From the NCBI GenBank assembly GCA_037893245.1, contig JBAIAA010000251.1:372001-436000 (forward strand): 64,000 nt of DNA. The letters run 5' to 3'. How positions within the stretch are numbered: the stretch's first letter is position 1; every line of letters starts with the position of its first letter. Shown here piece after piece: positions 13,564-64,000 of this stretch. The notes under the pieces are model-generated. The model saw only the letters and a list, made by a program, of their open reading frames with translations. It ran no database searches and was not told the DNA's origin. The translations under genes were made by a program, and so were the position numbers. Source of the stretch: Crossaster papposus (Eukaryota; Echinodermata; Asteroidea; Velatida; Solasteridae).

Positions 13564-14365
13564 GATCTACAAGATACCATGATGTCATTATGATATAATA
13601 AACAATAACTATCAACCAAAACAATAACACATTAACACAATGAAACACAATGATTCTGACCGGATATAGGTTATGACAGGATATTTATTATATTGAATAG
13701 CGCATATAACAGTTGGTTTGTGTATACGAGGGATTATAGTGTGTTACCATTTATTTAACTGCATCTTACAGTTACAGTTATTAGGTTTTTTTACAGTTTA
13801 TTACTATTAACCACCTACTTAAAGGGGCAGAATCGTCGCTCAAAAAATTGGCGTTCAACAAAGCCAGCTACAACGTCAGACAAGCTAAACGAATCCTTAA
13901 TAAATACACTGGTCTACTGGGCCCCAACTACGGCGTTAACATCTCTATCACCAACAACCCTAAGCTAAAACAGTTGTTTTGTACCAGCCGCACACTGCAC
14001 AGGAAGATTGCTAACTTCAAAGTATAATATTAATATAAAAACAAGAATATAATAAAACAAAACAAATCCTCCGACTATCACAAGTTTGTGACGCGTAATT
14101 CCTTCTAAAAAATATTCCCCGAGAGCCACTGGTATTGGACGCGTAATTTCTTCTTAATAATATCATCCAAGAGCCACTGGTTTGTAGACGATCTACAAGA
14201 TACCATGATGTCATTATGATATAATAAACAATAACTATCAACCAAAACAATAACACATTAACACAATGAAACACAATGATTCTGACCGGATATAGGTTAT
14301 GACAGGATATTTATTATATTGAATAGCGCATATAACAGTTGGTTTGTGTATACGAGGGATTATAG
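13564..14365 (+). repeat. 176-bp direct duplication within TIR element copy 1
   Basis: 13564-13739 and 14190-14365 are the same 176-bp segment, starting 'gatctacaagatacc' and ending 'gagggattatag'. The second copy interrupts the ~50-bp repeat tract. The identical arrangement sits in copy 2 at 16509-16684 and 17135-17310, so the duplication is older than the pair. Confidence 0.9.
13797..14027 (+). pseudogene. 76-codon exon-like fragment inside TIR element copy 1
   Basis: A 'ttaggtttttttacag' tract at 13781-13796 looks like a 3' splice site. The frame is open from 13797 to a TAA at 14025-14027 and has no ATG at the front. The product is basic (about residues 9-76: 'KGAESSLKKLAFNKASYN', then 'RILNKYTGLLGPNYGVNISI', ending 'LHRKIANFKV'). 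Base composition is clearly richer in GC and more codon-like than the surrounding element. I do not recognise the family. It may be the last exon of a host gene captured by the element, or the last scrap of the element's own protein. Copy 2 holds the same ORF unchanged (16742-16972). Confidence 0.45.
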
Positions 14366-14745
14366 AGCCACTGGTTTATAATTTTATAATAGACGCGTAA
14401 TTCCTTCTTAAAAATATCCACCAAGAGTCACAGGTTTATGAACGCGTAATTCCTTCTTTATAATTTACTACAAAAGCCACTGGTTGGTAGATACGTAATT
14501 CCTTCTTAAAAATACCCTCAGACAGCCACAGGTTTGTGGACGCGTAATTCCTTCTTAGAAATATCCTCCAAGAACCACAGGTTGGTGAACGCGTGGTTCC
14601 CTCTTTAAAATATCCTCAGACAGCCACAGGTTTGTGGACGCGTAATTCCTTCTTAGAAATATCCTTCAAGAACCACAGGTTTGTGGACGCGTAATTCCTT
14701 CTTAAAATTATCCTCCGAGAACCACAAGTCTGTAGACGCGTGTTT
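14080..14745. repeat. ~50-60-bp degenerate tandem repeat in TIR element copy 1
   Basis: About ten units built around 'acgcgtaattccttctt' and 'gccacaggtttgtgg', interrupted by the 176-bp duplication. The same tract is in copy 2 at about 17025-17690. Confidence 0.85.
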
Positions 14746-15403
14746 CCTTATAACTTCATTTCGCCGACAGCCATTGCTGTACGAGCATGTATGCCTATAT
14801 TAAAAAGATCACTTTTTACTCAATTAAATAACAACTTTCAACTATATAACGGGCAGCTGTTCACTATGTGAGACGTGATGTTTAAGCTCTACCCATTTTA
14901 AGTTAAGTTTTTAAGTTACGCATACATATCGGTTAATGTTTTCATAATTTTCCGATAATTTACCACACGCCCTTATACATAAAATAAAATAAAATTCTTT
15001 AGTATTAAGTCTAAATTACACGATAAGTTTCTTATACAATTCATTATTAAAGATTGATTTATGTCAATTAAAATACACATTGATTATACACTATACTGTA
15101 TAATTTTAATTCATTTCTTTATTTTTGAAACTCATCTTTTGAGTTTTTAATGTAAAAAGTGTATTATTACAGGCTCGAGAAATATCTGAACCATATCTGC
15201 TAACTTCCAAATTGAAAAATTGTTTATATCCTTAAACTATTTAATTCATATTTTCTAATTTATTAATTTATTAAATATAATATGTTTAAAGAAAATGTGA
15301 ATTAATACCGTAGTTCTTTCTAGAGAAACATAATTCCTTCATCTAATTGATTTAAAATATAGTTGTATCGAAATGCAATAAATTATAACCATAGAACTGT
15401 CCG

Positions 15404-36515: not shown

Positions 36516-36916
36516 TAGTATACACCATGGTTATATGCTTAAATTATCATGAATGGGCGAATTTAGACGGTTGTATTTTATAGTAAATATAATTTAACTG
36601 GCCTGTTCAAAGTTTTACAGTCATAAATGCCGAGAAAAGCACGGAATTCAGCGTTTGTTTTCAACCGGCGTTGGGCGGTTATTCTTATGTTATTTGTGTT
36701 GTTTCGCGATCGCCATCCGGCGGTCGCATATTTTTCTTTATAGAATTTTAATTTTCAGAATAATTTCGGGATATCTAGCGCAATCATTTTGCTGGATGCC
36801 TAGAATTTTTATTTACTTTCAGATGAGTAAGATATTTTTTAATATTTCGGAGTAAATGGTGTATCCTACCCTTAAGTTTCCATGTAGCTGGTTAAAATCA
36901 GAGGACGGGCCTCTGC
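36516..36916. other. Insert in the satellite array, with a dispersed 240-bp repeat
   Basis: 36610-36870 repeats the segment at 31963-32240. A short piece of satellite ('aaaatcagaggacgggcctc', about 36896-36915) returns just before the LINE begins. Confidence 0.6.
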
Positions 36917-38481
36917 TTCTTCTTTTTTCGCTCCAGTTGATGAACATGAGATATCTGACATTATCTGACATTCTCAATAATTTACAAAATAAAAAGAGCT
37001 CTGGTTATGATTGCATTAATATAGCTGTTGTCAAGAGTACTATCATGGCTATTTGTAGGCCACTTGCACACATTATTAATCTTTCATTCATAACCGGAAT
37101 TGTTCCACACCAATTGAAAATTGCCAAAGTTATTCCAGTTTATAAAAGTGGTGATCCTAATTGTGTTAATAATTATAGACCCATTTCCATCTTGCCTTGT
37201 TTTTCAAAAATATTTGAGAAATGTGTCCATACCCGACTCAGTAAATATTTATTTAAATTTGATATTCTAACCAATTCACAATTTGGATTTCGTAGCAAAC
37301 ACTCAACGACCCATGCAGTTCTTAATTTCTTGGACAAAGTTTCTAATGCAGTAGATAACTCTGAGCACACTTTGGGGATATTTCTTGATCTTTCAAAAGC
37401 CTTTGACACAATTGACCATGACATTTTGTTGCATAAATTGTCCTATTATGGTATTCGAGGAGTATCCCTGGAGTGGTTCAGAAGTTATCTTACAAATAGA
37501 AGCCAATATGTTTTTATTGGTGGTTCAAATTCATCTTTCAAAACTTTAAGCTGTGGAGTCCCTCAAGGATCAATTTTAGGCCCGTTACTTTTTATAATTT
37601 ATATCAATGACTTCACAAAATCATCAGATGTACTTTCATTTATTTTATTTGCTGATGATTCAAATTTATTTTTTTCTCATAACAACTTGAATACTCTTAT
37701 TGATACAATGAACAATGAACTTAAATTAGTTTCTAATTGGTTTAGAATCAATAAGTTGTCATTAAATATTAATAAAACCAATTACATGCTGTTCAGTAAT
37801 TCTGCTAATGATCTTCCTAGAGATGTTGTGATTAATGATGCTGCTATTATAAAAACCGACTGTTTCAAATTTCTGGGACTGTTTATTGACTCTAAGTTAA
37901 CCTGGAAAAATCATATTGATTATCTATGTAAAATTGTTGCTAGAAATATTGGTGTTATCAATAGAATCAAACATTTTTTTCCTCCATCGGTCCTAGTCTC
38001 TCTTTATAATACTTTAATTTTGTCATACCTTAATTATGGAATACTTGCGTGGGGTAACTGTTCCACTGGTTATCTTCAAAAGTTATTTCTTTTGCAGAAG
38101 CGAGCTCTTCGTATAATAAATTTTGTTGATTTTTGTGCCCATACTGATCCTCTCTTTTTTAAACATAAAACCTTAAAAATTAAGGATATTTATTACCATC
38201 AGCTTGGGTCCCTCATGTATCAGTCCGATTCCAATACTTTACCCTCGGCTATTAAGGCAATATTTGTGCGAAATGATCAGATCCATGCCCACTTTACTCG
38301 ACAGGCTTGTCATTTTCATCTCCCATTAACTCGTACTTCTTTTTCACACAAAACTATTAAATATGAGGGACCCAGGTTATGGAATTCACTTACTAATACA
38401 TTAAGAAGCTCCAAACATATTATCGCTTTCAAACGAGATTATAAGTTTGCTTTGTTGAACTTTTATTGTGAACTAATGTAA
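36917..38481 (+). CDS. Reverse transcriptase of a 5'-truncated non-LTR retrotransposon
   Basis: An uninterrupted frame from the LINE boundary to the TAA at 38479-38481 gives about 520 residues. Reverse transcriptase motifs are in order: 'KKSSGYD', 'YRPISILP', 'FLDLSKAFDTIDHD' (first catalytic Asp), 'GVPQGSILGPLLF', 'FADDSNLFF' (catalytic Asp pair) and 'LSLNINKT', then 'FKFLG'. The thumb and C-terminal part end with 'GPRLWNSLTNTLRSSKHI'. This is the CR1/Jockey-group layout. The APE endonuclease and ORF1 are gone, because the copy is truncated just before the RT domain. The frame also extends 20 codons back into satellite DNA (from 36856), which is chance. No stop or frameshift is present, so insertion is probably recent; without the 5' half it cannot move itself. 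Confidence 0.85.
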
Positions 38482-46890: not shown

Positions 46891-47060
46891 TATACAAATA
46901 TTGACTGCTTTGAGTGGTATAGTAAAACTAGCCTCCCGAGGTGATCCATGGAGCATTATATTTTTCCGAGGCGAAGCCGAGGGAAAATATAATGCTCCAT
47001 GGATCACCGAGGGAGGCTAGTTTTACTATACCGCGAAATAAAGCAGTTCATATTTGTTTT
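46891..47060. repeat. Foldback element with ~75-bp arms
   Basis: 'ggtatagtaaaactagcctc' (46917) is inverted at 47013-47032, and the match runs inward through 'tgatccatggagcattatat' and outward through 'actgcttt'/'aaagcagt'. The loop is 'ccgaggcgaagccgag'. Confidence 0.85.
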
Positions 47061-47407
47061 ATTACACCTCACTCACAGATTCTGCACAATTTAAGCTTCC
47101 TGAAAGTATAGTAATGACAAAAAATCTCCGAATTGTACGTATCTCGATCATACGTGTACTTTGTTGCCTTGATGAACGGGTGCGAAGGTGATAGAGCAAT
47201 GTTTACGCAATGCACCTAAACACACGTCTGGGTTTCAGTCACGCTTTCGTTGCTATGCGCATAGTTCGTGTGTTGCTATGCGCATAGTCCTTTTTGCGTG
47301 GTATAGTCTTTTTGGATAGCGCAAGTAAAAAATAGTAAAAATAGCAAGTGACACGTGACGCGCTCTCGGCCAATCAAGACACAGAATCTGTGAGTGAGGT
47401 GTTATAA
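47060..47407. repeat. ~350-bp inverted-repeat element cut by the array boundary
   Basis: 'tattacacctcactcacaga' (47059-47078) plus 'ttctg' is inverted at about 47382-47407 ('cagaatctgtgagtgaggtg'). The right arm is inside array unit 1 and recurs in every unit. The left arm exists only here, outside the array. Confidence 0.8.
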
Positions 47408-47578
47408 TACTAATTCGTTGACATTGCGAACGTCATCAACGTGGTTACACCATTAACATAGAAAAAAAGCGCATCGTACTACGTACCGGTTGATGAACCT
47501 CTGTTGTGTCTGTATTGTGGTTTCCGGTCGCGGCTCGCTAGCAGCGATAATGTTACAGTCAAACTGAAGTAATGTTGT

Positions 47579-47743
47579 CCCCCCCCCCCCCTGGTGCTGG
47601 TGGTAAACGAGCAAGAAATATTTGGAGGGGGGGGGGGGGCATGTGCCCGAGCCACCCCCCCTCACCCCCCCCCCCCCCCACCCCCCCCCCCCCCCCCCCC
47701 ACCCCCCCCCCCCCCCCCCCCCCCCACCCCCCCACCCCCCCCG
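47579..47743. repeat. C/G homopolymers and (CCCCCCA)n block of unit 1
   Basis: This block differs in length between units (also 51199-51397, 54859-55023, 58481-58634, 62092-62285) and accounts for most of the unit length differences. It creates long proline or glycine open frames that are artefacts. Confidence 0.9.
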
Positions 47744-48885
47744 CAGATGGCACTTGGTGGTGAATGGACCAGTGAGAGTTTGGCTCTCGCTCATGGTGAC
47801 AGCTAAAATAGTTCACATGGCCAGCGCACTCCCGCACAATTACAATTATTTTCTGAACTAGACTCGGGGCTAAGTTCAGAACCCCAACGAAACTGCACTA
47901 AGTTATAGAGATCAGTGTTATATGATACTCTCAAACACTTGAGGAGTTGGGAATCCAATAATTACAGGTAATTGAGTGAAATTACCTCTCATCGTGGGCC
48001 CTCGACCTGTCGCGTCTCTGGAAAAGCTGAGGCCGGATTACTCAATCGACTTCTATATCTATGGGCCGTTTTCCGAGTGGCCAAATATACATTCAGACAA
48101 AGCTAAATTACAGATAATCGTTTCAACCCCCTTCAGATCCAACCGAAGAATAAACTATTCAACAGAATGAGTTACAACATACAATACGACCCTGTACCTA
48201 GGTTATTTTTAGCGGAGGGCCACCACCGCACCCGTTGTGATCCGTACGTTGTAAACAGCTTACATGGGTAGTTTGTGCTCATTGCGCTTAAGGAACTACA
48301 TGTAGGCCCACATGTCATATAACCCGTTTCCACACAATATTATACGGCAACGTTTTATGTATACTCTAGGCCTACAAGTTTAAACAATTTCATCGGGTGC
48401 AATCCGAATGAGTGAAGGTCTTCTGCTCGGTGGGATCTAGGTCTAACATCATTTATGTCAAGGCATACACATACTCACTAATTTGTTATATGGAAAGAGG
48501 TAGGCCCCCTATAATGATTAAAACAATTGTTTTACTTACCGTTTAACGCTTGCTTGAATAGAATGTTTCGAAGCAAGTGGATATATTTCGGAGAATCTTT
48601 TGTAGCTATATGATCAAGTTAAGTTCCAAATCTCCTTGACACCTTACAACCATGTGGACAACGATGAAAACACGTTGAACAATGAAAATCATTCAGCTCG
48701 TATTAACGTCATTATAGCCAGCACGTCGCCAATTAAAACTATCAACCAATTGGATCATCATGTTCAGTCAAAGCCGATTGGTTTGATCACCAGTTTCAGC
48801 CGATTTAATAATTTTTCCTTCTTTCTCTCTTTCTTTCTTTCCTCTTTCCTCTTTCTTTCCTCTTTCGTATACCAGCGTATACCAG

Positions 48886-49653
48886 GAGGCATTGAAGGAA
48901 AGCGGCTACGACCACAAGCTTGAATTCAAAACAAGCGTACCAAATGGGCATAATACACGAAAGAAGCGATCCAGAAAAAGAAACGTCACTTGGTACAACC
49001 CGCCGTTTGACTTAAGAGTCAAAACCAACGTTGGACGCCAATTCTTGAAGATCGTTAACGAGAGTTTCCCCAAAGCACACGCACTGCAACAAATCTTCAA
49101 CAAGAACACACTGAAGCTGTCATACAGTTGTATGCCGAACATGAAGTCAACCTTGGACGCTCACAACAAAAATATAATAAAGAAGCAGGCACCAGAACCA
49201 GAAACCAAACCTTGCAACTGCAGAGTAAAGAATGAATGCCCCCTGGATGGAAGATGCAGAACACCAAACATCGTCTACCAAGCCACTGTAAAAACCAACA
49301 CGAGTGAAGAGACGTATGTGGGCCTAACCAGCACCGAGTTTAAGCAAAGACTCGGAAACCACCGACAATCATTCAAGAAAGAAGCGCACAGGAACCAGAC
49401 AGAACTATCAAAACATGTATGGACGCTAAAAGACAAAAACACTGAATTCACAACCAAGTGGAAAATCTTGAGCAATGCTCAACCGTACTCTAACATCAGT
49501 AAACAATGCAACTTGTGCACTATGGAGAAATTCTATATCATCTGCCACCCAGAAAAGGCTACTCTAAACAAAAGATCTGAGCTAACTAGCGCATGCCGGC
49601 ACGCGGCTAAATTCAAACTGATAAAGCACGCCAAAACCACGCCCAGAGTGTAA
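48886..49653 (+). CDS. GIY-YIG endonuclease end of a Penelope-like element, unit 1
   Basis: The frame is open from 48886 directly after a long CT-rich tract and 'gtataccag', so it looks like an exon start; there is no ATG at the front. The 255 residues start EALKESGYDHKLEF. They hold 'YNPPFDLRVKTNVGRQFLKI', 'LKLSYSCMPNM', a cysteine group (CNC...C...C, about 108-122) and the GIY-YIG nuclease: VYQATV (128-133), TYVGLT (141-146), FKQRLGNH with the key Arg (153), Glu 212 in 'CTMEKFYI' and Asn 226 in 'TLNKRSEL'. This is the C-terminal linker and endonuclease of Penelope-like retroelements, which nicks target DNA. The reverse transcriptase that should precede it is absent. It is the same length in all complete units with no disruption. 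Either a truncated element amplified as satellite, or the last exon of a spliced gene. Confidence 0.85.
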   Translation, partial: EALKESGYDHKLEFKTSVPNGHNTRKKRSRKRNVTWYNPPFDLRVKTNVGRQFLKIVNESFPKAHALQQIFNKNTLKLSYSCMPNMKSTLDAHNKNIIKKQAPEPETKPCNCRVKNECPLDGRCRTPNIVYQATVKTNTSEETYVGLTSTEFKQRLGNHRQSFKKEAHRNQTELSKHVWTLKDKNTEFTTKWKILSNAQPYSNISKQCNLCTMEKFYIICHPEKATLNKRSELTSACRHAAKFKLIKHAKTTPRV

Positions 49654-50195
49654 CGTTAGGCCGTGTCCGAATTGTTTGGCTGCGGCTTCAAGTTACACGC
49701 GGGCCTATGGTAGTTACTGCAGCCACTTCCCATGGACTCTTGTGCGATGTCAAGCCGTGGCCGGGTAGTTCGGGCGCGGCCATATAATTTTCCCACGCCC
49801 GCGTCAAGTTGCCCACATACGCCCGCAATCCAAGCACGCGTTATTGCGTTCGCGCCCCCCCCCCCTATAACTTGATGCACAGGTAGAACGTTTCGAGAAT
49901 GCCATTAAAATAATATTCCCTGACGAGTGGAGGTATATCCACGAAACAAATTTGTCGGAATAAAAACAATGGTGAACAAAAACCTATCCTAGTTTTTGTG
50001 ATTGATTTTATATCGCTCCTTTTATAAAGTAGAGCACTCTCCGAAGTTGAATCGGTTTACAAACACGTATATATATATTTATATATCCAATGAATTTGGC
50101 ATCTATCACAATCCAAAGTGCTCGATACATCTCTGTAGAGCTATAATTATGAAATAAATTTAGGATACGAGTTAAAATAACTTTGGCATATTTAT

Positions 50196-50239
50196 TTCTG
50201 GACAGACTGTTTCGTACCGTGTGGCACTCATCAGCAGAA
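50196..50239 (-). ncRNA. Hammerhead ribozyme (type I), unit 1
   Basis: Read on the minus strand: TTCTG (stem I) then CTGATGA core, GTGCC-ACAC-GGTAC (stem II, five pairs including one G-U), GAAA core, a tiny stem III in CAGTCTGTC, cleavage site after the GTC (at 50201), and CAGAA closing stem I. All invariant core bases are there. Hammerheads are known in Penelope-like elements and retrozyme-type satellites. Stem III is very short (2-4 pairs), as in forms that work as dimers, which a tandem array transcript would provide. Confidence 0.8.
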
Positions 50240-52540
50240 TGACATAGAATATCGTGTAGCATCTTCGTATACACATCGACGATGATCTCACGAAGTGCAA
50301 AAAACCTCTAAGCCTGGCTACAACTGCATTTTGAGATAATCAGGTTTTTGTATGAACAACTTTTAAAACGATATTTTAGATCACTTTCCAGTCACATATT
50401 TAAATCATGTTTGCATGTCCATGGCTGGTATGCCTTGCTCTATGGTTTTATGCAATTTGTTTGTACATGACTCTATTAATTAGCCAAATAATAATTAGTA
50501 AAATGTGTTTGCACTTCGTGAGATCAAGAAAACAGCCGCGCCTACTCTATCGACGCACGCGTCAACGTTTTGTGCACTTCGTGAGATCAATAAAGCAGAC
50601 GCGCCTACTCTATCGACGCACGCGTCACCGTTTTTGCACTTCGTGAGATCAAGAAAGCAGACGCGCCTACTCCATCGACGCACGCGTCACCGTTTTTGCA
50701 CTTCGTGAGATCAAGAAAGCAGCTGCGTCTACTCCATCGACGCCCGTGTCCGAATTGTACGTATCTCGATCATACGTGTACTTTGTTGCCTTGATGAACG
50801 GGTGCGAAGGTGATAGAGCAATGTTTACGCAATGCACCTAAACACACGTCTGGGTTTCGGTCACGCTTTCGTTGCTATGCGCATAGTTCGTGTGTTGCTA
50901 TGCGCATAGTCCTTTTTGCGTGGTATAGTCTTTTTGGATAGCGCAAGTAAAAAATAGTAAAAATAGCAAGTGACACGTGACGCGCTCTCGGCCAATCAAG
51001 ACACAGAATCTGTGAGTAAGGTGTTATAATACTAATTCGTTGACATTGCGAACGTCATCAACGTGGTTACACCATTAACATAGAAAAAAAGCGCATCGTA
51101 CTACGTACCGGTTGATGAACCTCTGTTGTGTCTGTATTGTGGTTTCCGGTCGCGGCTCGCTAGCAGCGATAATGTTACAGTCAAACTGAAGTAATGTTGT
51201 CCCCCCCCCCCCCCCCCCTGGTGCTGGTGGTAAACGAGCAAGAAATATTTGGAGGGGGGGGGGGGGCATGTGCCCGAGCCACCCCCCCTCACCCCCCCCC
51301 CCACCCCCCCCCCCCCCCCCACCCCCCCCCACCCCCCCCCCCCCCACCCCCCCCCCCACCCCCCCCCCCCCCCCCCCCCCACCCCCCCACCCCCCCCGCA
51401 GATGGCACTTGGTGGTGAATGGACCAGTGAGAGTTTGGCTCTCGCTCATGGTGACAGCTAAAATAGTTCACATGGCCAGCGCACTCCCGCACAATTACAA
51501 TTATTTTCTGAACTAGACTCGGGGCTAAGTTCAGAACCCCAACGAAACTGCACTAAGTTATAGAGATCAGTGTTATATGATACTCTCAAACACTTGAGGA
51601 GTTGGGAATCCAATAATTACAGGTAATTGAGTGAAATTACCTCTCATCGTGGGCCCTCGACCTGTCGCGTCTCTGGAAAAGCTGAGGCCGGATTACTCAA
51701 TCGACTTCTATATCTATGGGCCGTTTTCCGAGTGGCCAAATATACATTCAGACAAAGCTAAATTACAGATAATCGTTTCAACCCCCTTCAGATCCAACCG
51801 AAGAATAAACTATTCAACAGAATGAGTTACAACATACAATACGACCCTGTACCTAGGTTATTTTTAGCGGAGGGCCACCAACGCACCCGTTGTGATCCGT
51901 ACGTTGTAAACAGCTTACATGGGTAGTTTGTGCTCATTGCGCTTAAGGAACTACATGTAGGCCCACATGTCATATAACCCGTTTCCACACAATATTATAC
52001 GGCAACGTTTTATGTATACTCTAGGCCTACAAGTTTAAACAATTTCATCGGGTGCAATCCGAATGAGTGAAGGTCTTCTGCTCGGTGGGATCTAGGTCTA
52101 ACATCATTTATGTCAAGGCATACACATACTCACTAATTTGTTATATGGAAAGAGGTAGGCCCCCTATAATGATTAAAACAATTGTTTTACTTACCGTTTA
52201 ACGCTTGCTTGAATAGAATGTTTCGAAGCAAGTGGATATATTTCGGAGAATCTTTTGTAGCTATATGATCAAGTTAAGTTCCAAATCTCCTTGACACCTT
52301 ACAACCATGTGGACAACGATGAAAACACGTTGAACAATGAAAATCATTCAGCTCGTATTAACGTCATTATAGCCAGCACGTCGCCAATTAAAACTATCAA
52401 CCAATTGGATCATCATGTTCAGTCAAAGCCGATTGGTTTGATCACCAGTTTCAGCCGATTTAATAATTTTTCCTTCTTTCTCTCTTTCTTTCTTTCCTCT
52501 TTCCTCTTTCTTTCCTCTTTCGTATACCAGCGTATACCAG

Positions 52541-53308
52541 GAGGCATTGAAGGAAAGCGGCTACGACCACAAGCTTGAATTCAAAACAAGCGTACCAAAT
52601 GGGCATAATACACGAAAGAAGCGATCCAGAAAAAGAAACGTCACTTGGTACAACCCGCCGTTTGACTTAAGAGTCAAAACCAACGTTGGACGCCAATTCT
52701 TGAAGATCGTTAACGAGAGTTTCCCCAAAGCACACGCACTGCAACAAATCTTCAACAAGAACACACTGAAGCTGTCATACAGTTGTATGCCGAACATGAA
52801 GTCAACCTTGGACGCTCACAACAAAAATATAATAAAGAAGCAGGCACCAGAACCAGAAACCAAACCTTGCAACTGCAGAGTAAAGAATGAATGCCCCCTG
52901 GATGGAAGATGCAGAACACCAAACATCGTCTACCAAGCCACTGTAAAAACCAACACGAGTGAAGAGACGTATGTGGGCCTAACCAGCACCGAGTTTAAGC
53001 AAAGACTCGGAAACCACCGACAATCATTCAAGAAAGAAGCGCACAGGAACCAGACAGAACTATCAAAACATGTATGGACGCTAAAAGACAAAAACACTGA
53101 ATTCACAACCAAGTGGAAAATCTTGAGCAATGCTCAACCGTACTCTAACATCAGTAAACAATGCAACTTGTGCACTATGGAGAAATTCTATATCATCTGC
53201 CACCCAGAAAAGGCTACTCTAAACAAAAGATCTGAGCTAACTAGCGCATGCCGGCACGCGGCTAAATTCAAACTGATAAAGCACGCCAAAACCACGCCCA
53301 GAGTGTAA
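52541..53308 (+). CDS. GIY-YIG endonuclease end of a Penelope-like element, unit 2
   Basis: Identical product to the frame at 48886-49653, with the same CT-tract and AG in front and the same TAA. Differences between units are concentrated outside this frame, which fits either recent homogenisation of the array or constraint. Confidence 0.85.
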   Translation, partial: EALKESGYDHKLEFKTSVPNGHNTRKKRSRKRNVTWYNPPFDLRVKTNVGRQFLKIVNESFPKAHALQQIFNKNTLKLSYSCMPNMKSTLDAHNKNIIKKQAPEPETKPCNCRVKNECPLDGRCRTPNIVYQATVKTNTSEETYVGLTSTEFKQRLGNHRQSFKKEAHRNQTELSKHVWTLKDKNTEFTTKWKILSNAQPYSNISKQCNLCTMEKFYIICHPEKATLNKRSELTSACRHAAKFKLIKHAKTTPRV

Positions 53309-53853
53309 CGTTAGGCCGTGTCCGAATTGTTTGGCTGCGGCTTCAAGTTACACGCGGGCCTATGGTAGTTACTGCAGCCACTTCCCATGGACTCTTGTGC
53401 GATGTCAAGCCGTGGCCGGGTAGTTCGGGCGCGGCCATATAATTTTCCCACGCCCGCGTCAAGTTGCCCACATACGCCCGCAATCCAAGCACGCGTTATT
53501 GCGTTCGCGCCCCCCCCCCCCCCTATAACTTGATGCACAGGTAGAACGTTTCGAGAATGCCATTAAAATAATATTCCCTGACGAGTGGAGGTATATCCAC
53601 GAAACAAATTTGTCGGAATAAAAACAATGGTGAACAAAAACCTATCCTAGTTTTTGTGATTGATTTTATATCGCTCCTTTTATAAAGTAGAGCACTCTCC
53701 GAAGTTGAATCGGTTTACAAACACGTATATATATATTTATATATCCAATGAATTTGGCATCTATCACAATCCAAAGTGCTCGATACATCTCTGTAGAGCT
53801 ATAATTATGAAATAAATTTAGGATACGAGTTAAAATAACTTTGGCATATTTAT

Positions 53854-53897
53854 TTCTGGACAGACTGTTTCGTACCGTGTGGCACTCATCAGCAGAA
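53854..53897 (-). ncRNA. Hammerhead ribozyme (type I), unit 2
   Basis: Same sequence and fold as at 50196-50239; the spacing from the unit 1 copy is 3658 bp. A transcript between the two cleavage sites would be one unit long. Confidence 0.8.
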
Positions 53898-56167
53898 TGA
53901 CATAGAATATCGTGTAGCATCTTCGTATACACATCGACGATGATCTCACGAAGTGCAAAAAACCTCTAAGCCTGGCTACAACTGCATTTTGAGATAATCA
54001 GGTTTTTGTATGAACAACTTTTAAAACGATATTTTAGATCACTTTCCAGTCACATATTTAAATCATGTTTGCATGTCCATGGCTGGTATGCCTTGCTCTA
54101 TGGTTTTATGCAATTTGTTTGTACATGACTCTATTAATTAGCCAAATAATAATTAGTAAAATGTGTTTGCACTTCGTGAGATCAAGAAAACAGCCGCGCC
54201 TACTCTATCGACGCACGCGTCAACGTTTTGTGCACTTCGTGAGATCAATAAAGCAGACGCGCCTACTCTATCGACGCACGCGTCACCGTTTTTGCACTTC
54301 GTGAGATCAAGAAAGCAGACGCGCCTACTCCATCGACGCACGCGTCACCGTTTTTGCACTTCGTGAGATCAAGAAAGCAGCTGCGTCTACTCCATCGACG
54401 CCCGTGTCCGAATTGTACGTATATCGATCATACGTGTACTTTGTTGCCTTGATGAACGGGTGCGAAGGTGATAGAGCAATGTTTACGCAATGCACCTAAA
54501 CACACGTCTGGGTTTCAGTCACGCTTTCGTTGCTATGCGCATAGTTCGTGTGTTGCTATGCGCATAGTCCTTTTTGCGTGGTATAGTCTTTTTGGATAGC
54601 GCAAGTAAAAAATAGTAAAAATAGCAAGTGACACGTGACGCGCTCTCGGCCAATCAAGACACAGAATCTGTGAGTGAGGTGTTATAATACTAATTCGTTG
54701 ACATTGCGAACGTCATCAACGTGGTTACACCATTAACATAGAAAAAAAGCGCATCGTACTACGTACCGGTTGATGAACCTCTGTTGTGTCTGTATTGTGG
54801 TTTCCGGTCGCGGCTCGCTAGCAGCGATAATGTTACAGTCAAACTGAAGTAATGTTGTCCCCCCCCCCCCCCCCCTGGTGCTGGTGGTAAACGAGCAAGA
54901 AATATTTGGAGGGGGGGGGGGGGCATGTGCCCGAGCCACCCCCCCTCACCCCCCCCCCCCCCCCCCACCCCACCCCCCCACCCCCCCCCCCCCCCCCCAC
55001 CCCCCCACCCCCCCCACCCCCCCCGCAGATGGCACTTGGTGGTGAATGGACCAGTGAGAGTTTGGCTCTCGCTCATGGTGACAGCTAAAATAGTTCACAT
55101 GGCCAGCGCACTCCCGCACAATTACAATTATTTTCTGAACTAGACTCGGGGCTAAGTTCAGAACCCCAACGAAACTGCACTAAGTTATAGAGATCAGTGT
55201 TATATGATACTCTCAAACACTTGAGGAGTTGGGAATCCAATAATTACAGGTAATTGAGTGAAATTACCTCTCATCGTGGGCCCTCGACCTGTCGCGTCTC
55301 TGGAAAAGCTGAGGCCGGATTACTCAATCGACTTCTATATCTATGGGCCGTTTTCCGAGTGGCCAAATATACATTCAGACAAAGCTAAATTACAGATAAT
55401 CGTTTCAACCCCCTTCAGATCCAACCGAAGAATAAACTATTCAACAGAATGAGTTACAACATACAATACGACCCTGTACCTAGGTTATTTTTAGCGGAGG
55501 GCCACCACCGCACCCGTTGTGATCCGTACGTTGTAAACAGCTTACATGGGTAGTTTGTGCTCATTGCGCTTAAGGAACTACATGTAGGCCCACATGTCAT
55601 ATAACCCGTTTCCACACAATATTATACGGCAACGTTTTATGTATACTCTAGGCCTACAAGTTTAAACAATTTCATCGGGTGCAATCCGAATGAGTGAAGG
55701 TCTTCTGCTCGGTGGGATCTAGGTCTAACATCATTTATGTCAAGGCATACACATACTCACTAATTTGTTATATGGAAAGAGGTAGGCCCCCTATAATGAT
55801 TAAAACAATTGTTTTACTTACCGTTTAACGCTTGCTTGAATAGAATGTTTCGAAGCAAGTGGATATATTTCGGAGAATCTTTTGTAGCTATATGATCAAG
55901 TTAAGTTCCAAATCTCCTTGACACCTTACAACCATGTGGACAACGATGAAAACACGTTGAACAATGAAAATCATTCAGCTCGTATTAACGTCATTATAGC
56001 CAGCACGTCGCCAATTAAAACTATCAACCAATTGGATCATCATGTTCAGTCAAAGCCGATTGGTTTGATCACCAGTTTCAGCCGATTTAATAATTTTTCC
56101 TTCTTTCTCTCTTTCTTTCTTTCCTCTTTCCTCTTTCTTTCCTCTTTCGTATACCAGCGTATACCAG

Positions 56168-56935
56168 GAGGCATTGAAGGAAAGCGGCTACGACCACAAG
56201 CTTGAATTCAAAACAAGCGTACCAAATGGGCATAATACACGAAAGAAGCGATCCAGAAAAAGAAACGTCACTTGGTACAACCCGCCGTTTGACTTAAGAG
56301 TCAAAACCAACGTTGGACGCCAATTCTTGAAGATCGTTAACGAGAGTTTCCCCAAAGCACACGCACTGCAACAAATCTTCAACAAGAACACACTGAAGCT
56401 GTCATACAGTTGTATGCCGAACATGAAGTCAACCTTGGACGCTCACAACAAAAATATAATAAAGAAGCAGGCACCAGAACCAGAAACCAAACCTTGCAAC
56501 TGCAGAGTAAAGAATGAATGCCCCCTGGATGGAAGATGCAGAACACCAAACATCGTCTACCAAGCCACTGTAAAAACCAACACGAGTGAAGAGACGTATG
56601 TGGGCCTAACCAGCACCGAGTTTAAGCAAAGACTCGGAAACCACCGACAATCATTCAAGAAAGAAGCGCACAGGAACCAGACAGAACTATCAAAACATGT
56701 ATGGACGCTAAAAGACAAAAACACTGAATTCACAACCAAGTGGAAAATCTTGAGCAATGCTCAACCGTACTCTAACATCAGTAAACAATGCAACTTGTGC
56801 ACTATGGAGAAATTCTATATCATCTGCCACCCAGAAAAGGCTACTCTAAACAAAAGATCTGAGCTAACTAGCGCATGCCGGCACGCGGCTAAATTCAAAC
56901 TGATAAAGCACGCCAAAACCACGCCCAGAGTGTAA
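56168..56935 (+). CDS. GIY-YIG endonuclease end of a Penelope-like element, unit 3
   Basis: Same 255-residue product as in unit 1, intact, without ATG at the front and without reverse transcriptase. Confidence 0.85.
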   Translation, partial: EALKESGYDHKLEFKTSVPNGHNTRKKRSRKRNVTWYNPPFDLRVKTNVGRQFLKIVNESFPKAHALQQIFNKNTLKLSYSCMPNMKSTLDAHNKNIIKKQAPEPETKPCNCRVKNECPLDGRCRTPNIVYQATVKTNTSEETYVGLTSTEFKQRLGNHRQSFKKEAHRNQTELSKHVWTLKDKNTEFTTKWKILSNAQPYSNISKQCNLCTMEKFYIICHPEKATLNKRSELTSACRHAAKFKLIKHAKTTPRV

Positions 56936-57476
56936 CGTTAGGCCGTGTCCGAATTGTTTGGCTGCGGCTTCAAGTTACACGCGGGCCTATGGTAGTTACT
57001 GCAGCCACTTCCCATGGACTCTTGTGCGATGTCAAGCCGTGGCCGGGTAGTTCGGGCGCGGCCATATAATTTTCCCACGCCCGCGTCAAGTTGCCCACAT
57101 ACGCCCGCAATCCAAGCACGCGTTATTGCGTTCGCGCCCCCCCCCCTATAACTTGATGCACAGGTAGAACGTTTCGAGAATGCCATTAAAATAATATTCC
57201 CTGACGAGTGGAGGTATATCCACGAAACAAATTTGTCGGAATAAAAACAATGGTGAACAAAAACCTATCCTAGTTTTTGTGATTGATTTTATATCGCTCC
57301 TTTTATAAAGTAGAGCACTCTCCGAAGTTGAATCGGTTTACAAACACGTATATATATATTTATATATCCAATGAATTTGGCATCTATCACAATCCAAAGT
57401 GCTCGATACATCTCTGTAGAGCTATAATTATGAAATAAATTTAGGATACGAGTTAAAATAACTTTGGCATATTTAT

Positions 57477-57520
57477 TTCTGGACAGACTGTTTCGTACCG
57501 TGTGGCACTCATCAGCAGAA
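57477..57520 (-). ncRNA. Hammerhead ribozyme (type I), unit 3
   Basis: Same sequence and fold as at 50196-50239. Confidence 0.8.
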
Positions 57521-59777
57521 TGACATAGAATATCGTGTAGCATCTTCGTATACACATCGACGATGATCTCACGAAGTGCAAAAAACCTCTAAGCCTGGCT
57601 ACAACTGCATTTTGAGATAATCAGGTTTTTGTATGAACAACTTTTAAAACGATATTTTAGATCACTTTCCAGTCACATATTTAAATCATGTTTGCATGTC
57701 CATGGCTGGTATGCCTTGCTCTATGGTTTTATGCAATTTGTTTGTACATGACTCTATTAATTAGCCAAATAATAATTAGTAAAATGTGTTTGCACTTCGT
57801 GAGATCAAGAAAACAGCCGCGCCTACTCTATCGACGCACGCGTCAACGTTTTGTGCACTTCGTGAGATCAATAAAGCAGACGCGCCTACTCTATCGACGC
57901 ACGCGTCACCGTTTTTGCACTTCGTGAGATCAAGAAAGCAGACGCGCCTACTCCATCGACGCACGCGTCACCGTTTTTGCACTTCGTGAGATCAAGAAAG
58001 CAGCTGCGTCTACTCCATCGACGCCCGTGTCCGAATTGTACGTATCTCGATCATACGTGTACTTTGTTGCCTTGATGAACGGGTGCGAAGGTGATAGAGC
58101 AATGTTTACGCAATGCACCTAAACACACGTCTGGGTTTCAGTCACGCTTTCGTTGCTATGCGCATAGTTCGTGTGTTGCTATGCGCATAGTCCTTTTTGC
58201 GTGGTATAGTCTTTTTGGATAGCGCAAGTACAAAATAGTAAAAATAGCAAGTGACACGTGACGCGCTCTCGGCCAATCAAGACACAGAATCTGTGAGTGA
58301 GGTGTTATAATACTAATTCGTTGACATTGCGAACGTCATCAACGTGGTTACACCATTAACATAGAAAAAAAGCGCATCGTACTACGTACCGGTTGATGAA
58401 CCTCTGTTGTGTCTGTATTGTGGTTTCCGGTCGCGGCTCGCTAGCAGCGATAATGTTACAGTCAAACTGAAGTAATGTTGTCCCCCCCCCCCCCCCCTGG
58501 TGCTGGTGGTAAACGAGCAAGAAATATTTGGAGGGGGGGGGGGGCATGTGCCCGAGCCACCCCCCCTCACCCCCCCCCCCCCCCCCCCACCCCCCCCCCC
58601 CCCCCCCCCCCCCCCCCACCCCCCCACCCCCCCCGCAGATGGCACTTGGTGGTGAATGGACCAGTGAGAGTTTGGCTCTCGCTCATGGTGACAGCTAAAA
58701 TAGTTCACATGGCCAGCGCACTCCCGCACAATTACAATTATTTTCTGAACTAGACTCGGGGCTAAGTTCAGAACCCCAACGAAACTGCACTAAGTTATAG
58801 AGATCAGTGTTATATGATACTCTCAAACACTTGAGGAGTTGGGAATCCAATAATTACAGGTAATTGAGTGAAATTACCTCTCATCGTGGGCCCTCGACCT
58901 GTCGCGTCTCTGGAAAAGCTGAGGCCGGATTACTCAATCGACTTCTATATCTATGGGCCGTTTTCCGAGTGGCCAAATATACATTCAGACAAAGCTAAAT
59001 TACAGATAATCGTTTCAACCCCCTTCAGATCCAACCGAAGAATAAACTATTCAACAGAATGAGTTACAACATACAATACGACCCTGTACCTAGGTTATTT
59101 TTAGCGGAGGGCCACCACCGCACCCGTTGTGATCCGTACGTTGTAAACAGCTTACATGGGTAGTTTGTGCTCATTGCGCTTAAGGAACTACATGTAGGCC
59201 CACATGTCATATAACCCGTTTCCACACAATATTATACGGCAACGTTTTATGTATACTCTAGGCCTACAAGTTTAAACAATTTCATCGGGTGCAATCCGAA
59301 TGAGTGAAGGTCTTCTGCTCGGTGGGATCTAGGTCTAACATCATTTATGTCAAGGCATACACATACTCACTAATTTGTTATATGGAAAGAGGTAGGCCCC
59401 CTATAATGATTAAAACAATTGTTTTACTTACCGTTTAACGCTTGCTTGAATAGAATGTTTCGAAGCAAGTGGATATATTTCGGAGAATCTTTTGTAGCTA
59501 TATGATCAAGTTAAGTTCCAAATCTCCTTGACACCTTACAACCATGTGGACAACGATGAAAACACGTTGAACAATGAAAATCATTCAGCTCGTATTAACG
59601 TCATTATAGCCAGCACGTCGCCAATTAAAACTATCAACCAATTGGATCATCATGTTCAGTCAAAGCCGATTGGTTTGATCACCAGTTTCAGCCGATTTAA
59701 TAATTTTTCCTTCTTTCTCTCTTTCTTTCTTTCCTCTTTCCTCTTTCTTTCCTCTTTCGTATACCAGCGTATACCAG

Positions 59778-60545
59778 GAGGCATTGAAGGAAAGCGGCTA
59801 CGACCACAAGCTTGAATTCAAAACAAGCGTACCAAATGGGCATAATACACGAAAGAAGCGATCCAGAAAAAGAAACGTCACTTGGTACAACCCGCCGTTT
59901 GACTTAAGAGTCAAAACCAACGTTGGACGCCAATTCTTGAAGATCGTTAACGAGAGTTTCCCCAAAGCACACGCACTGCAACAAATCTTCAACAAGAACA
60001 CACTGAAGCTGTCATACAGTTGTATGCCGAACATGAAGTCAACCTTGGACGCTCACAACAAAAATATAATAAAGAAGCAGGCACCAGAACCAGAAACCAA
60101 ACCTTGCAACTGCAGAGTAAAGAATGAATGCCCCCTGGATGGAAGATGCAGAACACCAAACATCGTCTACCAAGCCACTGTAAAAACCAACACGAGTGAA
60201 GAGACGTATGTGGGCCTAACCAGCACCGAGTTTAAGCAAAGACTCGGAAACCACCGACAATCATTCAAGAAAGAAGCGCACAGGAACCAGACAGAACTAT
60301 CAAAACATGTATGGACGCTAAAAGACAAAAACACTGAATTCACAACCAAGTGGAAAATCTTGAGCAATGCTCAACCGTACTCTAACATCAGTAAACAATG
60401 CAACTTGTGCACTATGGAGAAATTCTATATCATCTGCCACCCAGAAAAGGCTACTCTAAACAAAAGATCTGAGCTAACTAGCGCATGCCGGCACGCGGCT
60501 AAATTCAAACTGATAAAGCACGCCAAAACCACGCCCAGAGTGTAA
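59778..60545 (+). CDS. GIY-YIG endonuclease end of a Penelope-like element, unit 4
   Basis: Same 255-residue product as in unit 1, intact, without ATG at the front and without reverse transcriptase. Confidence 0.85.
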   Translation, partial: EALKESGYDHKLEFKTSVPNGHNTRKKRSRKRNVTWYNPPFDLRVKTNVGRQFLKIVNESFPKAHALQQIFNKNTLKLSYSCMPNMKSTLDAHNKNIIKKQAPEPETKPCNCRVKNECPLDGRCRTPNIVYQATVKTNTSEETYVGLTSTEFKQRLGNHRQSFKKEAHRNQTELSKHVWTLKDKNTEFTTKWKILSNAQPYSNISKQCNLCTMEKFYIICHPEKATLNKRSELTSACRHAAKFKLIKHAKTTPRV

Positions 60546-61087
60546 CGTTAGGCCGTGTCCGAATTGTTTGGCTGCGGCTTCAAGTTACACGCGGGCCTAT
60601 GGTAGTTACTGCAGCCACTTCCCATGGACTCTTGTGCGATGTCAAGCCGTGGCCGGGTAGTTCGGGCGCGGCCATATAATTTTCCCACGCCCGCGTCAAG
60701 TTGCCCACATACGCCCGCAATCCAAGCACGCGTTATTGCGTTCGCGCCCCCCCCCCCTATAACTTGATGCACAGGTAGAACGTTTCGAGAATGCCATTAA
60801 AATAATATTCCCTGACGAGTGGAGGTATATCCACGAAACAAATTTGTCGGAATAAAAACAATGGTGAACAAAAACCTATCCTAGTTTTTGTGATTGATTT
60901 TATATCGCTCCTTTTATAAAGTAGAGCACTCTCCGAAGTTGAATCGGTTTACAAACACGTATATATATATTTATATATCCAATGAATTTGGCATCTATCA
61001 CAATCCAAAGTGCTCGATACATCTCTGTAGAGCTATAATTATGAAATAAATTTAGGATACGAGTTAAAATAACTTTGGCATATTTAT

Positions 61088-61131
61088 TTCTGGACAGACT
61101 GTTTCGTACCGTGTGGCACTCATCAGCAGAA
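61088..61131 (-). ncRNA. Hammerhead ribozyme (type I), unit 4
   Basis: Same sequence and fold as at 50196-50239. Confidence 0.8.
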
Positions 61132-61641
61132 TGACATAGAATATCGTGTAGCATCTTCGTATACACATCGACGATGATCTCACGAAGTGCAAAAAACCTC
61201 TAAGCCTGGCTACAACTGCATTTTGAGATAATCAGGTTTTTGTATGAACAACTTTTAAAACGATATTTTAGATCACTTTCCAGTCACATATTTAAATCAT
61301 GTTTGCATGTCCATGGCTGGTATGCCTTGCTCTATGGTTTTATGCAATTTGTTTGTACATGACTCTATTAATTAGCCAAATAATAATTAGTAAAATGTGT
61401 TTGCACTTCGTGAGATCAAGAAAACAGCCGCGCCTACTCTATCGACGCACGCGTCAACGTTTTGTGCACTTCGTGAGATCAATAAAGCAGACGCGCCTAC
61501 TCTATCGACGCACGCGTCACCGTTTTTGCACTTCGTGAGATCAAGAAAGCAGACGCGCCTACTCCATCGACGCACGCGTCACCGTTTTTGCACTTCGTGA
61601 GATCAAGAAAGCAGCTGCGTCTACTCCATCGACGCCCGTGT

Positions 61642-64000
61642 CCGAATTGTACGTATCTCGATCATACGTGTACTTTGTTGCCTTGATGAACGGGTGCGAA
61701 GGTGATAGAGCAATGTTTACGCAATGCACCTAAACACACGTCTGGGTTTCGGTCACGCTTTCGTTGCTATGCGCATAGTTCGTGTGTTGCTATGCGCATA
61801 GTCCTTTTTGCGTGGTATAGTCTTTTTGGATAGCGCAAGTAAAAAATAGTAAAAATAGCAAGTGACACGTGACGCGCTCTCGGCCAATCAAGACACAGAA
61901 TCTGTGAGTAAGGTGTTATAATACTAATTCGTTGACATTGCGAACGTCATCAACGTGGTTACACCATTAACATAGAAAAAAAGCGCATCGTACTACGTAC
62001 CGGTTGATGAACCTCTGTTGTGTCTGTATTGTGGTTTCCGGTCGCGGCTCGCTAGCAGCGATAATGTTACAGTCAAACTGAAGTAATGTTGTCCCCCCCC
62101 CCCCCCCCCCTGGTGCTGGTGGTAAACGAGCAAGAAATATTTGGAGGGGGGGGGGGGGCATGTGCCCGAGCCACCCCCCCTCACCCCCCCCCCACCCCCC
62201 CCCCCCCCCACCCCCCCCACCCCCCCCCCCCCCACCCCCCCCCCACCCCCCCCCCCCCCCCCCCCCCCACCCCCCCACCCCCCCCGCAGATGGCACTTGG
62301 TGGTGAATGGACCAGTGAGAGTTTGGCTCTCGCTCATGGTGACAGCTAAAATAGTTCACATGGCCAGCGCACTCCCGCACAATTACAATTATTTTCTGAA
62401 CTAGACTCGGGGCTAAGTTCAGAACCCCAACGAAACTGCACTAAGTTATAGAGATCAGTGTTATATGATACTCTCAAACACTTGAGGAGTTGGGAATCCA
62501 ATAATTACAGGTAATTGAGTGAAATTACCTCTCATCGTGGGCCCTCGACCTGTCGCGTCTCTGGAAAAGCTGAGGCCGGATTACTCAATCGACTTCTATA
62601 TCTATGGGCCGTTTTCCGAGTGGCCAAATATACATTCAGACAAAGCTAAATTACAGATAATCGTTTCAACCCCCTTCAGATCCAACCGAAGAATAAACTA
62701 TTCAACAGAATGAGTTACAACATACAATACGACCCTGTACCTAGGTTATTTTTAGCGGAGGGCCACCAACGCACCCGTTGTGATCCGTACGTTGTAAACA
62801 GCTTACATGGGTAGTTTGTGCTCATTGCGCTTAAGGAACTACATGTAGGCCCACATGTCATATAACCCGTTTCCACACAATATTATACGGCAACGTTTTA
62901 TGTATACTCTAGGCCTACAAGTTTAAACAATTTCATCGGGTGCAATCCGAATGAGTGAAGGTCTTCTGCTCGGTGGGATCTAGGTCTAACATCATTTATG
63001 TCAAGGCATACACATACTCACTAATTTGTTATATGGAAAGAGGTAGGCCCCCTATAATGATTAAAACAATTGTTTTACTTACCGTTTAACGCTTGCTTGA
63101 ATAGAATGTTTCGAAGCAAGTGGATATATTTCGGAGAATCTTTTGTAGCTATATGATCAAGTTAAGTTCCAAATCTCCTTGACACCTTACAACCATGTGG
63201 ACAACGATGAAAACACGTTGAACAATGAAAATCATTCAGCTCGTATTAACGTCATTATAGCCAGCACGTCGCCAATTAAAACTATCAACCAATTGGATCA
63301 TCATGTTCAGTCAAAGCCGATTGGTTTGATCACCAGTTTCAGCCGATTTAATAATTTTTCCTTCTTTCTCTCTTTCTTTCTTTCCTCTTTCCTCTTTCTT
63401 TCCTCTTTCGTATACCAGCGTATACCAGGAGGCATTGAAGGAAAGCGGCTACGACCACAAGCTTGAATTCAAAACAAGCGTACCAAATGGGCATAATACA
63501 CGAAAGAAGCGATCCAGAAAAAGAAACGTCACTTGGTACAACCCGCCGTTTGACTTAAGAGTCAAAACCAACGTTGGACGCCAATTCTTGAAGATCGTTA
63601 ACGAGAGTTTCCCCAAAGCACACGCACTGCAACAAATCTTCAACAAGAACACACTGAAGCTGTCATACAGTTGTATGCCGAACATGAAGTCAACCTTGGA
63701 CGCTCACAACAAAAATATAATAAAGAAGCAGGCACCAGAACCAGAAACCAAACCTTGCAACTGCAGAGTAAAGAATGAATGCCCCCTGGATGGAAGATGC
63801 AGAACACCAAACATCGTCTACCAAGCCACTGTAAAAACCAACACGAGTGAAGAGACGTATGTGGGCCTAACCAGCACCGAGTTTAAGCAAAGACTCGGAA
63901 ACCACCGACAATCATTCAAGAAAGAAGCGCACAGGAACCAGACAGAACTATCAAAACATGTATGGACGCTAAAAGACAAAAACACTGAATTCACAACCAA
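61642..64000 (+). repeat. Array unit 5 (partial, runs off the window)
   Basis: Same order as unit 1 up to the GIY-YIG frame. It has the unit 2 states at all three diagnostic sites ('ttcggtc' about 61748, 'gtgagtaagg' about 61904, 'ccaccaacgc' about 62764). The hammerhead region lies beyond the window. Confidence 0.95.
63429..64000 (+). CDS. GIY-YIG endonuclease frame, unit 5, cut by the window end
   Basis: The first 190 or so residues match units 1-4, including VYQ, TYVGLT and the Arg of the nuclease. The last part lies outside the window. Confidence 0.85.

Follow-up and report, generated by a model that had tools for sequence, protein, structure and literature searches.

How can a hammerhead ribozyme come to lie antisense to a GIY-YIG frame within one tandem repeat? 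The question is raised by a 64,000-nt stretch of the Crossaster papposus genome (the window), in which the first-pass annotation had described minus-strand hammerheads at unit spacing. These hammerheads (HHR-A) are real: four identical type I copies lie at 50195-61132, one per ~3.6-kb unit, and in the covariance-model check that had been proposed for them each matched Rfam RF00163 at 37.6 bits, above the gathering cut-off of 34 (E 7.1e-06 for the window). The parts claimed for the motif, namely CTGATGA, a five-pair stem II, GAAA, GTC and a five-pair stem I, are all present, and the predicted cut after 50201 falls at the standard type I cleavage position. A structural descriptor, composed only after the motif had been seen, gave 0 matches in 40 Markov-sampled 64-kb controls, and the remaining Rfam matches at E<=5 were all under their own cut-offs, mostly in a fold-back repeat or C runs. 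The copies, assigned below to a Penelope-like element (PLE) called PLE-A, are as follows.

50195..50240, minus strand: HHR-A copy 1, type I hammerhead of PLE-A (RF00163, 37.6 bits; structural descriptor)
53853..53898, minus strand: HHR-A copy 2 (RF00163)
57476..57521, minus strand: HHR-A copy 3 (RF00163)
61087..61132, minus strand: HHR-A copy 4 (RF00163)

The claim that the hammerhead is antisense to the GIY-YIG frame is true of HHR-A, yet it is incomplete: a second hammerhead (HHR-B) had been missed, and each of the two has the same sense as the element it derives from. HHR-B occurs once per unit on the plus strand, the sense strand of the GIY-YIG frame, at a distance of ~230 bp from HHR-A.

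49914..49962, plus strand: HHR-B copy 1, hammerhead of PLE-B (pattern and descriptor; found twice in locus L029)
53572..53620, plus strand: HHR-B copy 2 (pattern and descriptor)
57195..57243, plus strand: HHR-B copy 3 (pattern and descriptor)
60806..60854, plus strand: HHR-B copy 4 (pattern and descriptor)

The conserved core and three stems are present in HHR-B, all 13 counted pairs form, and 30 control sequences contained 0 matches to it. RF00163 did not list it at E<=5, whether over 17.5 kb or over 451 bases. Counted slot by slot (the MAFFT alignment is out of register in stem III), six pairs differ from those of HHR-A on both sides and one on one side, six are unchanged and none is broken.

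The suggestion that two elements were joined in one unit is supported, as fragments of two PLEs are present, each with its own hammerhead. PLE-B was read at L029, where HHR-B copies 2591 bp apart flank a 718-aa frame on both sides and in sense. The GIY-YIG frame of the unit is the C-terminal end of PLE-B, only about its last 260 codons.

48871..50070, plus strand: 5'-truncated PLE-B insert, first copy, comprising the long-frame end with the GIY-YIG domain and then pLTR-B (BLAST of L029 against the window; GIY-YIG Pfam)
52526, 56153, 59763 and 63414, plus strand: starts of further PLE-B insert copies (BLAST of L029 against the window)
52442..53308, plus strand: stop-to-stop frame with GIY-YIG domain, second in-window copy (first in-frame ATG at 52787, giving 173 aa)

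The GIY-YIG domain of PLE-B scores 22.8 bits in Pfam (cut-off 22.6). No RT model matched the PLE parents in Pfam at E<=10 or NCBIfam at E<=1, and a PDB sequence search with the PLE-B frame gave no match at E<=0.01. The predicted structure of PLE-B (pLDDT 87.4) matches solved RTs and telomerases with a best E of 4.4e-08, telomerase chains making up 13 among the 50 matches listed, with low TM-scores of 0.19-0.37 by query; this model supports a probable RT fold for the protein. The idea of the EN frame as a maintained gene is unsupported: it is a truncated fragment with a frameshift in unit 6, and its codon differences from L029 (five synonymous and one non-synonymous over 257 codons) are too few to reveal selection.

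In the genome, PLE-A forms tandem monomers of 2434 bp whose HHR-A is in sense to their 711-aa frame, and it also occurs as numerous 5'-truncated copies. Its protein gave no GIY-YIG match at E<=10 and is 55% identical to that of PLE-B over 700 aa, EN region included; a protein search with the PLE-A frame found 2378 relatives at E<=0.001 among 7994 scored. In the unit, PLE-A is represented by a short insert.

50080..50279, minus strand: 5'-truncated PLE-A insert (PLE-A 2235-2434, that is pLTR-A with HHR-A), 99.5% identical to PLE-A
53738-53937, 57361-57560 and 60972-61171, minus strand: other PLE-A insert copies

The proposed link between these hammerheads and PLEs is borne out, with HHR-A lying within the PLE-A insert and in sense in longer PLE-A copies. 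The idea that HHR-A and the EN frame come from one and the same element is rejected, as PLE-B has its own sense hammerhead and HHR-A belongs to PLE-A.

Both parents resemble known elements. They have a GIY-YIG region (for PLE-A by its identity to PLE-B) in a probable RT frame, tandem pLTRs with a sense hammerhead (2434-bp and 2591-bp spacings), 5' truncation, an optional 3' tail and an AT-rich target. The Poseidon element of Anolis is an EN-containing PLE with a pLTR hammerhead (PMC11167929), and minimal type I hammerheads occur in PLEs (PMC7761336). EN-containing PLEs of this kind share the single long GIY-YIG frame, tandem pLTR units, minimal type I hammerhead, 5' truncation, optional 3' tail and AT-rich target (PMC11167929; PMC7761336). 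In contrast, the window has only 3' fragments of two such elements, tail to tail and co-amplified with unrelated repeats, and the 3.6-kb unit itself lacks the complete RT-EN frame of a PLE. The repeat contains the tails of two related jumping genes set end to end, with a predicted motif for self-cutting RNA on each strand; it is an unusual composite built of known parts and not a new kind of element. No description of this composite was found in the titles or abstract beginnings of the open-licence papers listed.

The two fragments meet at a sequence that both elements target.

50068..50086, no strand: (TA)n-rich tract separating the PLE-B 3' end (plus) from that of PLE-A (minus), the shared target (sequence)

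The PLE-B 3' end at L029, the one locus read, runs into (TA)n. Of 27 free PLE-A 3' ends (17 long, 10 short), 25 lie at alternating AT runs of at least 10 nt and two at 9-nt runs, although they are not 27 independent events because several have flanks in common. Moreover, a probe for the PLE-B/(TA)n/PLE-A junction matched nearly end to end at 11 of the 40 places scored (the best of 383 candidates) and partially at the other 29. Seven of the 11 are in the array and four elsewhere, in two classes, whose PLE-B-like partner shares only about 89% identity with PLE-B; a PLE-A/PLE-A pair also lies tail to tail at L027. For the other junction probe, the places scored (the best 40 of 396 candidates) included 34 outside the array, and the stretches fetched cover 27 of these 34. 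Because scoring took in just the 40 best places of 383 and of 396, an unamplified relative of the unit could exist elsewhere.

With a probability of roughly 90%, the unit is a nested pair of 5'-truncated PLE insertions, tail to tail at (TA)n, that was later amplified. A truncated PLE-B copy on the plus strand would first have stood beside a (TA)n microsatellite, into which a ~200-bp PLE-A copy, essentially pLTR only, would have inserted on the opposite strand so that the 3' ends abutted. Each fragment would have carried in a pLTR hammerhead of its own sense, and the result is therefore one hammerhead per strand and an apparently antisense ribozyme. Against this account, the truncated side of the PLE-A insert is without the expected (TA)n, and this end has therefore been rearranged or lost. 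Partly comparable structures are described for Penelope elements of Adineta vaga (PMC3846280), with inverted pLTR pairs and a PLE inserted in a PLE in opposite orientation; however, those are described as single loci, mostly head-to-head, whereas the array is tail-to-tail at (TA)n seven times.

We infer the order of insertion and amplification at the DNA level, the latter from the structure of the array.

47127..64000, no strand: in-window part of the tandem array (unit self-BLAST, BLAST on L009, unit spacings, boundaries)
50508..50750, no strand: 62-bp tandem repeats, about four copies, at the unit's end, with the unit junction inside the last copy

The array runs on past the window to about C251:444,510 (= L009:8510) and holds seven units in this one assembly, with lengths of 3595-3658 bp and successive HHR-A spacings within the window of 3658, 3623 and 3611. 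At its edges the array shows a duplication junction in which two bases are shared; this junction falls within the last 62-mer rather than at the end of a pLTR, and the left edge is at unit position 560. Units 1 and 4, and likewise 2 and 5, show 0 substitutions in 3446 counted sites (C/G-rich stretches are outside the count), against three between units 1 and 2, three between 1 and 3, and two between 2 and 3. The leading partial unit has one difference from each of units 2, 3 and 5 and does not fit the three-unit pattern exactly. Because the array edges do not coincide with PLE ends and a block of three units appears to have been duplicated, tandem DNA duplication would be the simplest route from the composite locus to at least seven units. 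The identity of units 1/4 and 2/5 outside C/G-rich stretches could also suggest that assembly error contributed to the repeat number, or to the array as such, for example through a duplicated 10.9-kb block, but C-run lengths differ between all pairs among the seven units, and two deletions and three substitutions are private to unit 6, which makes this very unlikely.

The first-pass annotation had inferred that minus-strand transcripts could self-cleave into ~3.6-kb monomers and possibly circles. A rival reading built on this is a retrozyme-type satellite whose array was made, or is maintained, by such an RNA cycle with cleavage at HHR-A. The intact core and the presence of one hammerhead per unit are consistent with this, as is folding: the hammerhead fold of a monomer lies above the predicted minimum by 4.5 kcal/mol for HHR-A (3.9 for HHR-B), whereas for two HHR-A copies a dimeric fold is possible that exceeds the cofold minimum by 1.0 kcal/mol. 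Weighing against the motif itself, an HHR-A monomer is predicted to take another fold at minimum energy, and 34 of 200 shuffled sequences fold equally well or better. However, the unit appears not to be set by cleavage, as its boundary falls within the unrelated 62-bp repeat, at a distance of about 0.5 kb (HHR-A) or 0.8 kb (HHR-B) from the hammerheads, and the three-unit pattern points to DNA-level duplication. Furthermore, both junction probes match end-to-end at 100% only here, among the best 40 of 396 and 40 of 383 places. Animal retrozymes similarly have a type I hammerhead in tandem DNA repeats, but these are reported as short units (PMC7229834) of 150-450 bp around the hammerhead, whereas the array unit is about ten times longer, carries a PLE-B coding fragment and has ends not set by the ribozyme. 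As such, a retrozyme origin appears highly improbable.

The pLTR-A copies stand in direct repeat at unit spacing and the genome has a long open PLE-A frame, so the 3.4 kb between successive pLTR-A copies could instead be cargo copied by the PLE-A protein, on the model of a host gene reported between Adineta pLTRs (PMC3846280). Examined free PLE-A 3' ends lie at AT runs, however, whereas the left array edge, which on this model would be the 3' end, falls in other sequence at unit position 560, and this origin is extremely unlikely.

Under the nested-insertion reading, either strand, if transcribed, could be cut once in every unit by its predicted ribozyme, with a dimer of two copies probably the most favourable form, and putative self-cleavage to 3.6-kb monomers or circles is possible for either strand. 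Viroids with two hammerheads exist. HDV-like circular RNAs whose two polarities both contain hammerheads are described from toads and termites (PMC7761336). These circles and viroids are like the array in having one hammerhead on each strand of the repeat or circle, but the array is a DNA composite of two transposon ends. There is a small chance that the array is a symmetric self-cutting satellite, with facing pLTR promoters transcribing both strands and HHR-A and HHR-B cutting the RNA into 3.6-kb monomers and circles of both polarities. If so, neighbouring copies would act as dimeric hammerheads, and the DNA-encoded circles would resemble two-hammerhead viroids.

The locus illustrates that a hammerhead can become antisense to a coding frame without new biology, through two PLE families that share a (TA)n target and end up tail to tail. 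A PLE hammerhead whose core is intact can escape the Rfam type I model, and genomic hammerhead counts may therefore be low. Finally, an array with one hammerhead per strand would be a natural substrate for asking if tandem minimal PLE hammerheads cut as dimers in vivo.

The array, seven units of about 3.6 kb behind a leading partial unit, carries a hammerhead on each strand. The first-pass annotation described minus-strand hammerheads at unit-length spacing, and this description proved accurate: the Rfam type I model (RF00163; cut-off 34 bits) matches four sites, here called HHR-A.

HHR-A in the window (RF00163 matches)
50195-50240, minus strand, type I hammerhead, 37.6 bits
53853-53898, minus strand, type I hammerhead, 37.6 bits
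57476-57521, minus strand, type I hammerhead, 37.6 bits
61087-61132, minus strand, type I hammerhead, 37.6 bits

Along the whole array the spacings are 3658, 3623, 3611, 3653, 3620 and 3595. With 40 of 396 candidates scored, a 171-base probe around HHR-A gave 41 matches in the window's own genome (1.02 Gb); seven, all within one array on the window's contig, cover the entire probe, and the remaining 34 cover only the part belonging to PLE-A, the element that carries HHR-A. RF00163 itself gave 72 matches above cut-off among 74 scored of 117,957 candidates in this genome and none in 14 control genomes. Five HHR-A variants (44.9-45.3 bits, both strands) lie within 67 kb on another contig, C258 (1335177-1401807), and three of their sequences were read.

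Reading the sequence past the GIY-YIG nuclease frame uncovered a second hammerhead, HHR-B, which recurs once in every unit on the plus strand (the first at 49914-49962). Its core is intact, with a stem II of five pairs, a stem I of six pairs and a self-complementary stem III, and 13 of 13 counted pairs form; relative to HHR-A, both sides are changed in six pairs, one side in one, and none is broken. HHR-B is missing from the Rfam matches at E values up to 5, which counts against it. The hammerhead descriptor had no matches in 30 control sequences and an earlier one none in 40, both having been composed only after the motif was known.

The two hammerheads belong to different parent elements, both of which we take to be Penelope-like (PLE). 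At other loci (L011-L012), PLE-A is a 2434-bp tandem element containing HHR-A and, in the same orientation, a stop-to-stop frame of 711 aa; the window retains only positions 2235-2434, reversed and 99.5% identical. The nuclease frame is part of the second element, PLE-B, one genomic copy of which (L029) has a 718-aa frame flanked on both sides by HHR-B, 2591 bp apart and all in one direction. The window copy begins at L029 position 1662 and differs in six of 257 compared codons, five synonymously. The two proteins are 55% identical over 700 aa. Against a Pfam cut-off of 22.6 bits, GIY-YIG scores 22.8 bits in PLE-B, while the window frame scores 22.5 or 22.8, varying with the length of frame given; PLE-A has no GIY-YIG match at E<=10. 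Neither protein matches a reverse transcriptase model in Pfam (E<=10) or NCBIfam (E<=1). The YRDD and FDIVEFYPS stretches agree with reverse transcriptase motifs. A structure predicted for PLE-B (27 sequences, mean pLDDT 87.4, pTM 0.83) has matches among solved reverse transcriptases, the best at E 4.4e-08, and telomerases make up 13 of the 50 chains listed; viral RNA polymerases are likewise among the matches, and TM-scores are low. Elsewhere in the window, a 541-aa stop-to-stop frame at 36856-38481 has an RVT_1 reverse transcriptase domain (128 bits) and is by appearance a non-PLE retroelement.

In each unit the elements meet tail to tail, which explains why HHR-A lies antisense to the nuclease frame: in the first copy PLE-B ends near 50068, with (TA)n next to it and, beyond that, the PLE-A 3' end on the opposite strand. 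Among 27 free PLE-A 3' ends in the loci read, some of which have common flanks and so are not independent, 25 adjoin alternating AT runs of at least 10 nt and the other two adjoin runs of 9 nt (17 with the long end, 10 with the short). The PLE-B 3' end at L029 likewise continues into (TA)n. For a probe across the junction, the best 40 of 383 candidates were scored: seven belong to the array, four others span nearly the whole probe at 87-91%, 28 stop at base 87 (PLE-B side and (TA)n) and a single match stops at base 103. Three of the four non-array composites (L031-L033), 95-97% alike, were counted as one event and L030 as a separate one; the PLE-B-like portion of these composites shares about 89% identity with PLE-B. 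Similarly, L027 has two PLE-A copies tail to tail. The arrangement thus arose more than once, as expected given a common (TA)n target, which in turn agrees with the AT-rich cleavage reported for an Anolis PLE protein (PMC11167929).

Five PLE-A 3' ends (hammerheads L012:5570, L018:5024, L022:4968, L027:7677 and L027:2221) adjoin a near-identical flank past (TA)n, either a repeatedly targeted dispersed repeat or older duplications. Head-to-head PLE-A pairs, with 5'-truncated ends at most 80 bp apart, occur at 10 of 18 non-array loci (L014, L015, L019, L020, L021, L023, L025, L026, L027 and L028); L019/L023 and L020/L021 have common flanks and look like copies of single events. Such pairs agree with in vitro work on the Anolis element, in which both target strands are reported to be cut and extended (PMC11167929). 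A repeat 96% alike at L025:4039-4418 and unit positions 1929-2314 (first full copy 52118-52503) adjoins a CTTTC-type tract and is followed by a PLE-A insert in L025 and a PLE-B insert in the window, possibly a common landing site.

The array runs from 47127 to L009:8510; two bases are common to its edges and the unit junction, which lies inside the last 62-mer. A TGATCTCACGAAGTGCAAAA-like end recurs in inverted orientation on both sides of the 62-mers (50280-50303, 50508-50750, and the right flank in L009), perhaps marking a small DNA transposon interrupted by that junction. A long fold-back repeat lies immediately left of the array (46917-47031), where Rfam miRNA matches of 45.3 and 39.3 bits fall far under their cut-offs of 98 and 89. 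With C/G-rich stretches excluded, units 1 and 4, and 2 and 5, show no substitutions over 3446 sites, and units 1-2, 1-3 and 2-3 differ by three, three and two. Three substitutions and two deletions separate unit 6 from unit 3, and one of the deletions disrupts the nuclease frame of unit 6. The leading partial unit has a single-site difference from each of units 2, 3 and 5 and therefore falls outside the three-unit pattern. This pattern suggests that a three-unit block was duplicated, and it argues for duplication at the DNA level and against an origin of the units through RNA, but it could also reflect a duplication made in assembly. One pair of 48-49-bp repeat arrays is present twice, at 14090-14749 and 17035-17694 (2945 bp apart), which suggests a further tandem duplication in the window.

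The hammerhead is not the minimum-energy fold of either monomer (z-scores -0.90 for HHR-A and -2.90 for HHR-B), lying 4.5 and 3.9 kcal/mol, respectively, above the predicted minimum; two-copy hammerhead folds lie 1.0 and 1.6 kcal/mol above the cofold minimum. Minimal PLE hammerheads are said to be capable of self-cleavage via dimeric motifs (PMC7761336), and the Anolis hammerhead cleaved solely with protein present (PMC11167929). Because a tandem array gives each transcript at least two copies, self-cutting of array RNA from either strand, if transcribed, is plausible.

Hammerheads are already known from Penelope-type terminal repeats (pLTRs), and so are pLTRs in inverted pairs and a PLE nested in another in opposite orientation (PMC7761336, PMC3846280). 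The Crossaster papposus array is a new example of these features, and what is unusual in it is the joining of two families tail to tail, with a hammerhead on each strand once per unit, and their amplification.
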